Assembly: GCA_022797115.1 (NCBI GenBank)
Contig: JAAWKB010000010.1
Location: 1-41,959 of the forward strand
Reading direction: 5' to 3'
DNA from: Oscillospiraceae bacterium
GTDB lineage: Bacteria; Bacillota; Clostridia; Oscillospirales; Oscillospiraceae
DNA length: 41,959 bases
Part shown: positions 24,474 through 27,085 of the stretch, in pieces
How positions within the stretch are numbered: the first letter of the stretch is position 1
Layout: the number at the start of each line of letters is the position of its first letter
Program-made: the position numbers and the translations under genes
The notes under the pieces: generated by a model
Database searches by the model: none
What the model was told of the DNA's origin: nothing
What the model saw: only the letters and a program-made list of their open reading frames with translations

Positions 24474-24506
24474 ACCGCCCTTCCTGGGAACGGGAAGGGC
24501 GGTTTC
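24474..24506 (+). terminator. Terminator after the M3 peptidase
   Basis: Perfect 11-bp arms ACCGCCCTTCC and complement with an 8-base loop, followed by TTTCCC. Confidence 0.75.
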
Positions 24507-24547
24507 CCTGTGTGGACAGGTTTTTGCGGGGAATTTGCGGAAAACAC

Positions 24548-24578
24548 TTGACTTTCCCCCTGGTGGAAGGGGTATGCT
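24548..24578 (+). promoter_or_regulatory. MerR-type promoter/operator ahead of yhfC
   Basis: -35 TTGACT (24548-24553) and -10 TATGCT (24573-24578) are 19 bp apart, the stretched spacing of MerR-activated promoters. The spacer begins TTTCCCCCTGGTGGA and forms an imperfect dyad centred on CCTGG. Twelve or more bases are identical to the operator at 25384-25414 ahead of the MerR gene, so the same regulator probably controls both. Confidence 0.75.
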
Positions 24579-24631
24579 AAGCGCAGAAAAGGGCCGCCGG
24601 GCAGTGTGGCGGCCGGAAAGAAGGGTTGATA

Positions 24632-25387
24632 TTGAGTGCTGCAATGATTGTGATGGTCTGCAACGCGGTCCTGACAGTAGTGGTCCCGGTGGGGATAATG
24701 CTGTTCCTTCACCGGCGGGGCGGGCGGTGGTCCAGCTTCGCCGTGGGTGCGGCGACGTTTGTCCTCTTTGCCATGGTGCTGGAGGCAATCTTCCACAACC
24801 TGGTGCTGGGGAGCGCCCTGGGGCCGGTCATCCAGGGCAACATCTGGCTCTATGGACTCTACGGCGGCCTGGCGGCTGGGATATTTGAGGAGGTGGGCCG
24901 TTTCCTCGCCTTCAAGCTGGTGCTGCGGAAACAGCGGGACCGGGTAACAGCCCTCAGCTACGGCATCGGCCACGGCGGGGTCGAGGCGTTCCTGCTGCTG
25001 GGGATGACGATGGTGAACAACCTGATCATCCTGTCCGCATGGACCGGCGGTGGGGAGCTGGCCCCGGAGTTGGAGAGCGCGGCGGCAACTCTGGCGTCTT
25101 ATCCGGCCTCTGCTTTCCTGTGGGGAGGGTTCGAGCGCATCCCCGCCATCGCGTTCCATATGGCAGCCTCCGTGCTGGTGTTCACCGCCGCCACTCGGCC
25201 CGGGAAGCTGTGGCTGTTCCCCGCGGCCATCGTGCTCCATTTCCTGCTGGACTTCCTTGCCGTCGTATGCAGTGCCTACCTGCCCATTGCGGTCCTGGAG
25301 CTGTTGGTAGCGGTGTTTGCCTTGGCGGTAGTTTGGCTGGCGGCGCGGAGCTATAAAAAATTGCCCGAAAAAGTGGAAATTTCTTGA
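24632..25387 (+). CDS. yhfC: YhfC-family intramembrane protease-like protein
   Basis: 251-residue membrane protein with about seven hydrophobic segments. Residues that mark the YhfC/CAAX-protease-like group are visible: EEVGRFLAFK (EExxR), YGIGHGGVEAFLL, ERIPAIAFHMAAS and LHFLLDFLA (HxxxD). These proteins are predicted glutamic-type intramembrane proteases; natural substrates are unknown. The start is uncertain: TTG 24632 sits 6 bases after GAAGGG and is preferred to TTG 24626, which abuts it; ATG 24644 is also possible. Its stop overlaps the -35 of the next MerR-type promoter. Sharing an operator with a membrane-tethered MerR suggests a role in the same envelope response. Confidence 0.88.
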   Translation: MSAAMIVMVCNAVLTVVVPVGIMLFLHRRGGRWSSFAVGAATFVLFAMVLEAIFHNLVLGSALGPVIQGNIWLYGLYGGLAAGIFEEVGRFLAFKLVLRKQRDRVTALSYGIGHGGVEAFLLLGMTMVNNLIILSAWTGGGELAPELESAAATLASYPASAFLWGGFERIPAIAFHMAASVLVFTAATRPGKLWLFPAAIVLHFLLDFLAVVCSAYLPIAVLELLVAVFALAVVWLAARSYKKLPEKVEIS

Positions 25388-25414
25388 CCTTCCCCCTGGT
25401 GGAGGGTGTACAAT
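25384..25414 (+). promoter_or_regulatory. MerR-type promoter/operator ahead of the merR operon
   Basis: -35 TTGACC (25384-25389), 19-bp spacer, -10 TACAAT (25409-25414). The dyad halves ACCTTCCCCC and GGTGGAGGGT match at 8 of 10 positions around a central T. Nearly identical to 24548-24578. Fits autoregulation by the MerR protein encoded just downstream. Confidence 0.85.
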
Positions 25415-25437
25415 TGGAGTGAAAAGGGAGGGGGACC

Positions 25438-26100
25438 ATGAAGATCAACGAGGTGGAGGCCCTGGTGGGCATCACAAAAAAGAATATCCGCTTCTATGAG
25501 GAGAAGGGCCTGCTCTCCCCCAGCCGCAACAGTGAGAACGGCTACCGGGACTACGGCCAGGAGGAGGTGGATGTGCTGCGGCGCATCAAGCTGCTGCGCA
25601 AGCTGGGCGTCCCCATCGAGGAAATCCGCCGGATGCAGGAGGGGACGCAGACGGTCGGCGACGGGATGCGCCGCCACCTGGTCACACTGGAGCGGGAGCG
25701 GCGGAACTTGGACGAAGCGGCGCGGCTGTGTACGCTGCTGAAGGAGCGGGAAATCCCGCTGCGGGAGCTGGACGCGGAGGGCGTGCTGGAGGAGATGGAG
25801 AAGCTGGAGCAGACCGGCACCACCTTCCAGAACAAGCAGCGGCAGGATGTGCGCATCCGGTATGTGGCGCCTGTGGTGATCTCAGCGGTGCTGGTGGCGC
25901 TGATGGCGGCCATAGCGGCCGTCATGTTCTGGGGGTACTCTGTTGGGTACGTTGTGGACCCGTCAGAGGTGCCGCCGCTGGCGGTGATTCTGGTGCTGGA
26001 GGCGCTGCCGCTGCTGGTGATTGTAGGGGTGCTGCTGGCCCTGTTCCAGCGGATCAAGGAAATCGGAAGAGGGGAGATTGACGATGCGAAACAATACTAA
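25438..26100 (+). CDS. MerR-family regulator with C-terminal membrane hairpin
   Basis: 220 residues. The N-terminal winged helix is MerR: MKINEVEALVGITKKNIRFYEEKGLLSP, NGYRDYGQEEVDVLRRIKLLRKLGVPIEEI, followed by the dimerisation helix. No metal-binding Cys pattern is seen. From about residue 140 there are two hydrophobic helices (VVISAVLVALMAAIAAVMF and LAVILVLEALPLLVIVGVLLAL), then the tail FQRIKEIGRGEIDDAKQY. It should therefore sit at the membrane while bound to DNA. The two following genes encode similar hairpins with the same tail. GGGAGGGGG precedes ATG 25438. It likely activates or represses both 19-bp-spaced promoters by twisting DNA, as MerR proteins do; the signal may be sensed in or at the membrane. 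Confidence 0.93.
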   Translation: MKINEVEALVGITKKNIRFYEEKGLLSPSRNSENGYRDYGQEEVDVLRRIKLLRKLGVPIEEIRRMQEGTQTVGDGMRRHLVTLERERRNLDEAARLCTLLKEREIPLRELDAEGVLEEMEKLEQTGTTFQNKQRQDVRIRYVAPVVISAVLVALMAAIAAVMFWGYSVGYVVDPSEVPPLAVILVLEALPLLVIVGVLLALFQRIKEIGRGEIDDAKQY

Positions 26101-26341
26101 AAAGAAGATTGCCCCCATTGTGGTGGCAGTACTGGTGGTAGCCTATGTAGGCCCGTTGGTTGCGCTGATGGCCTATGCCGCCGGTCTGCTGGGGGCCCAG
26201 CCGGAGGCCCGGGCGGCCCTGCCCTTCCTGCTGCTGTACTTGGTGGCAGGCGGCGCGGTGATTATTGGCGTAGTGGCCGCTATGCGGCAACGGCTCCGGG
26301 AAATTGACGGAGGGGAAGAGGATGAGGCCAGAAAATACTGA
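26084..26341 (+). CDS. Small two-helix membrane protein, paralogue of MerR tail
   Basis: 85 residues with a basic start (MRNNTKKK), two hydrophobic helices (APIVVAVLVVAYVGPLVALMAYAAGLL and ALPFLLLYLVAGGAVIIGVVAAM) and the tail RQRLREIDGGEEDEARKY. Layout and tail match the C-terminal part of the upstream MerR protein (RIKEIGRGEIDDAKQY) and the next gene's product. Start ATG 26084 is preferred over TTG 26078 because GGGGAG is 7 bases upstream. It overlaps the MerR gene by 17 bases, so translation is coupled. Function unknown; it could pair with the regulator's hairpin in the membrane. Confidence 0.82.
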   Translation: MRNNTKKKIAPIVVAVLVVAYVGPLVALMAYAAGLLGAQPEARAALPFLLLYLVAGGAVIIGVVAAMRQRLREIDGGEEDEARKY

Positions 26342-26585
26342 GGCGCAGGCGCTGCGGCGGAAAAACGCCCTGTGGGGCGCGGTATCCTCTACCGCAGTGC
26401 GGGTGGTGGCTGCGCTGGTCCTGTTGTGGCTGCGCGCCGGGCTGGACCCGGCGGGCCTGACAGCAAAGCTGCTGGCGCTGCTGATCGTGTTCGAAGTGGG
26501 GACAATCCTCCCCATTTGGATCAATTTAAAGACAAGACTGAAAGAAATTAAAGGAGGAGAAGAAGATGCTGCTGCTCAATATTGA
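26322..26585 (+). CDS. Second small two-helix membrane protein with the same tail
   Basis: 87 residues: MRPENTEAQALRRKNALWG, then two hydrophobic stretches (about AVRVVAALVLLWL and AKLLALLIVFEVGTILPIWI) and the tail KTRLKEIKGGEEDAAAQY. Start ATG 26322 lies behind GGAGGGGAAGAG inside the end of the previous gene (20-base overlap). The tail codons double as the ribosome-binding site of the next gene. Same unknown family as the preceding small protein and the C-terminus of the MerR regulator. Confidence 0.8.
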   Translation: MRPENTEAQALRRKNALWGAVSSTAVRVVAALVLLWLRAGLDPAGLTAKLLALLIVFEVGTILPIWINLKTRLKEIKGGEEDAAAQY

Positions 26586-26877
26586 CCATATCCCGGGGAA
26601 GGAGATCGAGGCCCTGGGGATCGTGAAGGGGACTATTGTACAGTCGAAGAACTTTGGAAAGGACTTTATGGCGGGGATGAAGACCCTGGTTGGCGGTGAA
26701 ATCACCGGTTACACAGAGATGATTACCGAGGCCCGCCAGATTGCCACCAAGCGGATGGTAGATGAGGCGGAGGCCCTGGGAGCGGACGCGGTTGTAAATG
26801 TCCGCTACGGCTCGTCCTCTGTGATGCAGGGGGCGGCGGAGGTGATTGCCTACGGCACGGCGGTCAAGATCCGCTGA
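26566..26877 (+). CDS. YbjQ/UPF0145 family protein
   Basis: 103-residue soluble protein of the YbjQ family, small beta/alpha proteins that assemble as pentamers and are sometimes labelled heavy-metal-binding. Typical text: EIEALGIVKGTIVQSKNFGKDFMAG, VGGEITGYTEMITEARQIATKRMVDEAEALGADAVVNVRYGSSSV and the end EVIAYGTAVKIR. Residue Cys is absent, so metal binding through thiols is ruled out for this member. Start ATG 26566 follows GGAGGAGAAGAAG, overlapping the previous gene by 20 bases. Last gene of the MerR operon; biochemical role unknown. Confidence 0.93.
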   Translation: MLLLNIDHIPGKEIEALGIVKGTIVQSKNFGKDFMAGMKTLVGGEITGYTEMITEARQIATKRMVDEAEALGADAVVNVRYGSSSVMQGAAEVIAYGTAVKIR

Positions 26878-26885
26878 TAGGTGGG

Positions 26886-26914
26886 GGCCGGCGCAGCGCA
26901 AGGCTGCGCCGGCC
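26886..26914 (+). terminator. Hairpin closing the merR operon
   Basis: Perfect 12-bp arms GGCCGGCGCAGC and complement with loop GCAAG, 8 bases after the stop. No U-run follows (ATTGCCG). Confidence 0.6.
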
Positions 26915-27085
26915 ATTGCCGTCCAGCTCCAGACGGTTAGCCCCAGTCCCCATCGGGCTCCATCCTATTCCCGGCTCCCGTTCCAGGCGCTCTCCCGCCC
27001 TGGTTTGGGAGCCTGTCTTTTTTTCACCTCCGCCATCGCGCTTGATGCAGTCCTCTGTTTCCTGCAAAAAAAATGCGTTACCCCC

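Follow-up and report, generated by a model that had tools for sequence, protein, structure and literature searches.

Regulators of the MerR family are textbook cytosolic sensors, and they act at their promoters by distorting the DNA to correct a 19-bp spacer. The sensor kinase BceS, in turn, is a two-helix membrane sensor with a tiny loop. The main text of a survey of membrane transcription regulators does not name MerR (PMC10269533), and our searches of the open-licence PMC library listed no account of a membrane MerR or of a link between YbjQ and MerR. Here, we analyze a locus from a gut-type Oscillospiraceae bacterium (GCA_022797115.1, contig JAAWKB010000010.1, positions 1-41,959 of the forward strand; this whole stretch of 41,959 nt is the window). 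At 24541-26877 on the plus strand it carries, in this order, yhfC, a MerR gene whose product has two predicted membrane segments (merR-TM), the genes of small proteins 1 and 2, and ybjQ. The operators, candidate regulon members, homology, gene order and conservation reported below are results of computation. Taken together, sequence comparisons moderately favor the view that the locus belongs to a regulon in which a membrane-embedded, one-component MerR senses envelope or antimicrobial stress and controls exporters.

A shared operator at merR-TM, yhfC and exporter genes

The features of the locus are as follows (operator scores refer to the 31-bp matrix described below):

24548-24578, plus strand: promoter/operator ahead of yhfC; TTGACT at 24548-24553, 19 bp, TATGCT at 24573-24578; matrix score 45.5
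24626-25387, plus strand: yhfC, predicted intramembrane protease of 253 aa; PF10086, E 4e-42; start unsure (TTG at 24626 or a nearby codon)
25384-25414, plus strand: promoter/operator ahead of merR; TTGACC at 25384-25389, 19 bp, TACAAT at 25409-25414; matrix score 49.5
25438-26100, plus strand: merR-TM, 220 aa; MerR DNA-binding domain, predicted dimer-type helix, two-helix membrane hairpin and C-terminal tail; PF13411, E 2e-21
25873-25929, plus strand: MerR membrane segment 1, residues 146-164, from hydropathy
25978-26034, plus strand: MerR membrane segment 2, residues 181-199, from hydropathy
26050-26097, plus strand: MerR C-terminal tail RIKEIGRGEIDDAKQY
26084-26341, plus strand: small protein 1, 85 aa; membrane hairpin and tail RLREIDGGEEDEARKY; start codon within the tail codons of merR
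26322-26585, plus strand: small protein 2, 87 aa; membrane hairpin and tail RLKEIKGGEEDAAAQY
26566-26877, plus strand: ybjQ (UPF0145), 103 aa without hydrophobic segments; PF01906, E 1e-37

MerR-TM scores 76.2 bits with MerR_1 (PF13411; cut-off 21.6). The two membrane helices described in the original prediction correspond to two hydrophobic segments, a pair seen in each of the 18 aligned members of the protein family. The usual effector domain of MerR proteins is predicted to be replaced by a two-helix membrane hairpin.

The same prediction had proposed two promoters with 19-bp spacers and a shared core, and both are present. The window contains exactly two copies of the 21-base operator core, and none was seen in 100 dinucleotide shuffles (3 mismatches allowed). 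Both spacers contain a TTCC..GGA(A) dyad, and the stop codon of yhfC overlaps the -35 box of the merR operator. For comparison with relatives we used the best 80 of 502 confirmed relatives in a scan of named genomes, some of which duplicate genomes already searched; most of these 80 carry titles of Oscillospiraceae or of unassigned Clostridia and Bacillota, and a few of Lachnospiraceae. A clear operator lies at merR in 74 of the 80 loci. These 74 sites share one gapless 31-bp frame, in which TA and T of the -10 box carry full information, and they served as the training set of the matrix; the sites ahead of linked yhfC genes were not used. Apart from the yhfC and merR operators, no site in the window scores above 10, and the highest background score is 10.5 over 1.5 million positions of base-shuffled loci.

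Among the six loci without a clear adjacent operator, four (L128, L135, L149, L159) have it ahead of the gene preceding merR, one has a site at -175 (L193) and one an imperfect site (L162). Although the matrix was built from merR sites only, it finds the operator ahead of 15 of 17 linked yhfC genes with scores of 34-48; at the other two, the contig end cuts the site off (L197) or a shortened variant with a 19-bp spacer is present (L121). No operator precedes unlinked yhfC in 17 loci, taken from 17 of the 34 relatives having unlinked YhfC (best score -6.2). The proposal of one MerR-type regulon that takes in yhfC therefore stands. Conservation of the operators in relatives had been set beforehand as a test able to refute it; they are conserved, and the proposal was not refuted.

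YbjQ scores 128.8 bits with PF01906 (gathering cut-off 23), and relatives of it have solved structures (1vr4, 1y2i, 2gtc). The ybjQ gene follows merR in 80 of 80 loci and is present in all of the 35 fetched MerR-TM loci and the own locus. A membrane hairpin resembling the one in small protein 2 is fused in frame to YbjQ in 11 of the 80 loci, two of these fusions being confirmed by Pfam; nine of the 11 are in the MerR tree, all within one clade. Eight loci of other genera (L099-L106) are minimal, with merR and ybjQ and without the small genes. Sequence comparison identifies MerR-TM plus YbjQ as the core of the system.

Of 24 same-genus relatives, 20 have a full-length MerR-TM. Outside the genus 15 of 174 relatives have one, and these 15 all belong to the same family (96 genomes from other genera searched); one of the 15 lies at a contig end, with its match starting at model position 34. 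A class-wide draw of 391 genomes, including the own genome, added two further full-length MerR-TM proteins, both from one other family. MerR-TM, YbjQ and the operator thus occur jointly in a second family.

The operator extends beyond this locus. A degenerate form of it (at most 2 mismatches) gave 55 sites in 25 genus genomes, including the own genome, and the reversed pattern gave 0. We examined 25 off-locus sites, namely all 23 of the genus and one each in G062 and G154. Seventeen of the 23 genus sites precede ABC exporters: seven lie ahead of an operon of adaptor, ATPase and MacB-type permease, nine ahead of an ABC ATPase (a permease of ~530 aa is recognised in eight) and one ahead of another ABC pair. 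One more lies ahead of a membrane small protein and ybjQ (G009). The site in G062 precedes a MacAB-type operon and that in G154 another MerR gene. In the own genome, the operator at C4:13097 precedes an HlyD, ABC_tran and MacB_PCD/FtsX operon and that at C6:4049, on the minus strand, an ABC_tran ATPase with a 529-aa permease, with matrix scores of 36.2 and 37.5, respectively. The original picture of a compact circuit of the genes at this locus only is not supported, as the same operator also precedes these two exporters. Weaker scores at ABC genes are 18.6 (L245) and 22.6 (L258). ABC genes of the same type lie downstream of ybjQ in five of the eight minimal loci of other genera (ATPase and permease in L100, L104 and L105, ATPase in L103, permease in L102). 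Since the exporters are linked to the operon in some genera and unlinked but preceded by the operator in others, there is good evidence that the exporters and the MerR-TM operon belong to one predicted regulon.

Several observations weigh against this reading. Five of the 23 genus sites precede nothing recognisable (L235, L248, L250, L256, L257), two of them scoring below 10. G021 and G023, drafts of 67% and 76% completeness, have exporter sites too, with no MerR-TM found in either, and G009 (83% complete) has the operator, the small protein and ybjQ, with no full-length MerR-TM found. The operator is not private, as operator-like sites stand at other MerR genes in G154 and G089, and a distant look-alike scoring 16.8 lies at the promoter of another MerR of the own genome (L008); cross-control by other MerRs is possible. 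The likeness of paired operators within a genome is weak relative to shuffling (p 0.012 at the centre and 0.18 over the whole site, from 16 distinct pairs). Finally, a single event may account for the YbjQ fusions, and as the internal start is kept, YbjQ is perhaps also made alone. Other MerRs of the own genome were considered as owners of the operator; the loci of the six recovered by protein search score at most 16.8, which makes them unlikely.

Further variation was seen at individual loci. In G009, the locus L251 (contig C9) has the operator, the membrane small protein and ybjQ with no MerR between. Two other MerR genes with different C-termini have a similar operator just ahead (L113, L238). 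Three operator copies in G006 (L235, L248, L249) also share the bases immediately downstream, a pattern resembling the spread of a repeat with its own promoter through this genome. The paired operators of G017 share an unusual AACC centre. At L128:2489-2860, a DUF3784 protein (PF12650) replaces yhfC; the operator lies ahead of its gene and none directly at merR. L151 has an extra operator (score 51.9) 1498 bases past the merR start, between the tail genes and ybjQ. In L135 and L159, the spacing between yhfC and merR is 260-267 bases, which leaves room for a small gene or signal.

YhfC as an accessory member

YhfC scores 144.6 bits with PF10086 (gathering cut-off 24.2), a family whose former name we take to be DUF2324. 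DUF2324 is listed as a PrsW-like peptidase in one published account (PMC3482391). Residues E88, E89, R92, H116, E120, E170, R171, H178 and H205 are invariant in 12 sequences, 11 of which are 46-66% identical to YhfC of this locus. The protein carries an EExxR motif and core histidines (E88, E89, R92, H116, H178, H205), the choice of histidines being our reading. The AlphaFold model of YhfC has a predicted local distance difference test (pLDDT) score of 93.1.

Co-occurrence of yhfC with MerR-TM had been put forward as a check, and it holds within the genus but not outside. Among the 24 same-genus relatives, 11 have yhfC, all 11 with MerR-TM and adjacent to it. Outside the genus, YhfC is found in 35 and MerR-TM in 15 of 174 relatives and both in two, with ~3 expected, so there is no surplus. 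When linked, yhfC always directly precedes merR in the same orientation, with a gap of -4 to 267 bases (17 of 80 loci). It was not found in 58 of the 75 loci having sufficient upstream sequence and is missing from nine of the 20 same-genus relatives having MerR-TM. This patchy occurrence rules out YhfC as a universal partner and, judged from gene content, makes it doubtful that YhfC is needed as the cutter of the regulator. In the YhfC tree, a branch with support 96/96 separates 20 linked YhfCs from 17 unlinked ones. Along the MerR tree, the presence of yhfC changes at least 11 times (6 forced). Linked yhfC forms one clade and has kept its operator, yet its presence changes often; hence, the phylogeny fits one recruitment followed by frequent loss or movement, with YhfC as a probable accessory and not a core component.

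Two readings of what YhfC does compete with the accessory role in membrane trimming or modulation considered below. In the first, YhfC modulates the regulon without proteolysis or serves it as a separate effector acting on the envelope. Its patchiness fits an accessory output gene, and there is a precedent in the Abi protein Abx1, which is reported to control the kinase CovS by contact, with its protease residues dispensable (PMC3578759). Set against this, all catalytic-type residues are invariant in the 12 members, suggesting an active enzyme, and we regard this reading as possible rather than probable.

In the second reading, which we consider unlikely, regulated intramembrane proteolysis is at work: YhfC would cleave the small proteins or the hairpin of MerR and thereby release or end the signal. 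The shared operator, the position directly before merR wherever yhfC is linked, and a PF10086 protein with invariant EExxR and histidines are consistent with it, as is an Rce1-like protease gene (PF02517, E 4e-15) inside the operon of a genome that also has yhfC (G018, locus L122). It is opposed by the many loci and same-genus relatives in which MerR occurs without yhfC; as the presence of yhfC changes so often on the MerR tree, the core appears to work without it. Moreover, once released from the membrane, MerR would no longer receive a signal arising there. The YhfC sequence had no match to the Rce1-like protein of L122 or to PDB chains, and a sequence kinship between the two proteins was dropped. 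A decayed-looking Rce1-like gene was seen by eye in G008 (L126).

The predicted membrane hairpin and its tail

The predicted membrane helices of MerR-TM are ~16 residues apart and leave almost no external loop. In the AlphaFold monomer model (pLDDT 84.7), residues 73-104 form one helix and residues 133-173 and 181-219 two long ones; residues 213-220, the end of the tail, have pLDDT below 50. Cys98, the only cysteine close to where the predicted dimer helix ends, is invariant in 18 MerR-TM proteins. This residue, together with the proximity to CueR-type regulators (CueR is the best-scoring NCBIfam neighbour) and the Pfam label of the YbjQ family as 'putative heavy-metal-binding', might point to a thiol or metal sensor. 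We consider this improbable, since CueR scores 60 bits against a cut-off of 147.4 and every other metal-MerR equivalog model listed is likewise far below its cut-off, MerR-TM of this locus has no cysteine beyond residue 98, and the exporters are MacAB and ABC types and not recognised metal pumps.

The hairpin recurs in the neighbouring genes. Of the three small partners that had been proposed, two are membrane-hairpin proteins with the tail of MerR and the third is the soluble YbjQ. No Pfam family exceeds its cut-off for small proteins 1 and 2. In hhalign comparisons, small protein 1 matches the MerR C-terminus (98.7%, E 4e-16) and small protein 2 matches both MerR (95.8%) and small protein 1 (98.0%); a search of the own-genome proteins with MerR as query recovers small protein 1 (E 1.6e-6). 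MerR-TM and small proteins 1 and 2 end in the same C-terminal tail, RxxEIxxGExDxAxxY. The small hairpin proteins hence look like duplicates of the sensor half of MerR minus the DNA-binding part. Outside the minimal loci, an operon usually holds one to three further tail genes.

Among 235 tails in the 80 loci, 195 overlap the start of the next open reading frame (ORF) and 40 do not; this count used a pattern fixing R, a charged/Q residue, I/L/V/M and [GS]E, so that its residue percentages are partly built in. The tail was therefore re-examined with small protein 1 identified by its hairpin alone and MerR by homology, the tail not being used. Small protein 1 was identified in this way in 54 of the 80 loci, 18 without overlap and 36 with. 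In the 18 non-overlapping tails, R, E, G, E, A and the final Y are conserved at 100% and I at 94%, and none departs from the motif; of the 36 overlapping tails, two depart (L129, L192). In MerR, 75 tails overlap the next ORF and five do not, the motif being intact in all five. As the motif persists in tails without overlap, selection acts on the tail as a protein feature. The frequent overlap and the GGAGGA-like run often held by the tail codons might suggest that the tail only supplies the next gene with its ribosome-binding site and start codon and has no role as protein. As the sole cause this is ruled out and highly improbable, because non-overlapping tails keep the motif with codons such as GGC and GAC, unlike a ribosome site.

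Some tail genes encode 54 aa with one membrane segment (by eye). A ~1.2-kb insert between small genes of L145 contains a 245-aa antisense ORF (L145:5939-6676, minus strand) that looks PilZ-like by eye, and L154 and L172 have a similar gap. Two hairpins flank the operon of this locus:

24474-24503, strand not assigned: hairpin separating the M3 peptidase gene from the yhfC promoter; terminator-like on the minus strand in the scan, with a symmetrical stem
26880-26920, plus strand: strong hairpin after ybjQ (-35.4 kcal/mol, z -5.3)

The latter lacks a T-run and is not among the terminator-scan calls; it is the likely operon end.

Proposed mechanism and comparison with known systems

From these results we infer how DNA binding, the signal, complex formation and the roles of YbjQ and YhfC might fit together. 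A MerR dimer would sit on the operators of its own, the yhfC and the exporter promoters, all with 19-bp spacers. Because the effector domain is replaced by a hairpin with ~16 residues between its helices, the signal would most likely arise within the membrane, whether through damage to it, through a membrane-active peptide or through a partner located there, for instance an exporter. The small hairpin proteins would most likely join MerR in the membrane and set its sensitivity, with YbjQ as a likely cytosolic partner reading the shared tail. The output would comprise the MacAB-type and ABC exporters, the own operon and, where kept, yhfC, whose product may be an accessory trimming or modulating membrane components. 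A more elaborate and rather doubtful version is a MerR signalosome, in which the sensor hairpin is copied into subunits, YbjQ reads their tails, and YhfC or Rce1-like proteases clear the subunits and so reset the exporter switch. The proposed mechanism yields function hypotheses for the poorly known families YbjQ and YhfC, and the shared tail motif makes both testable.

With CueR, BmrR and TipA of the MerR family, the system shares the winged-helix domain, a predicted dimer-type helix, the 19-bp spacer with a dyad and efflux genes in the predicted regulon. It differs from them in the predicted hairpin in place of the effector domain and in an operon that adds hairpin paralogues without the DNA-binding part. 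Transmembrane regulators of the CadC, ToxR and TcpP type likewise combine a DNA-binding domain and membrane segments in one protein, whereas MerR-TM is predicted to pair a MerR domain with a hairpin that has almost no external domain. For TcpP, intramembrane proteolysis is reported in titles in the reference list of the survey (PMC10269533). YhfC shares its PF10086 score over cut-off and its EExxR motif and histidines with YhfC/PrsW-like and Rce1/CPBP proteins and is set apart from them by the tie of its gene to a MerR operator. YbjQ shares PF01906 with the UPF0145 family; here it is linked to a membrane hairpin, with which it forms one reading frame in some loci.

In the PSP/Lia membrane-stress systems, small membrane proteins are described as feeding a transcription factor (PMC11237479), as we propose here; unlike in these systems, the six proteins scanned gave no Pfam match to PspA, PspC, LiaF or Toastrack. 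The closest working analogue is the Bce module, an intramembrane-sensing kinase with BceAB (PMC10314905), which has the MacB/FtsX-type exporter output in common with the predicted regulon. BceS and MerR-TM also resemble each other in the two-helix membrane sensor with a tiny loop, which in MerR-TM is a prediction. Pfam and NCBIfam scans of the operon proteins found neither a histidine kinase nor a response regulator, and the MerR-TM system, unlike Bce-type modules, is predicted to be one-component. If the proposed mechanism is true, a conserved MerR branch with its sensor placed in the membrane and copied into its partners would be a one-component counterpart of Bce/Lia.

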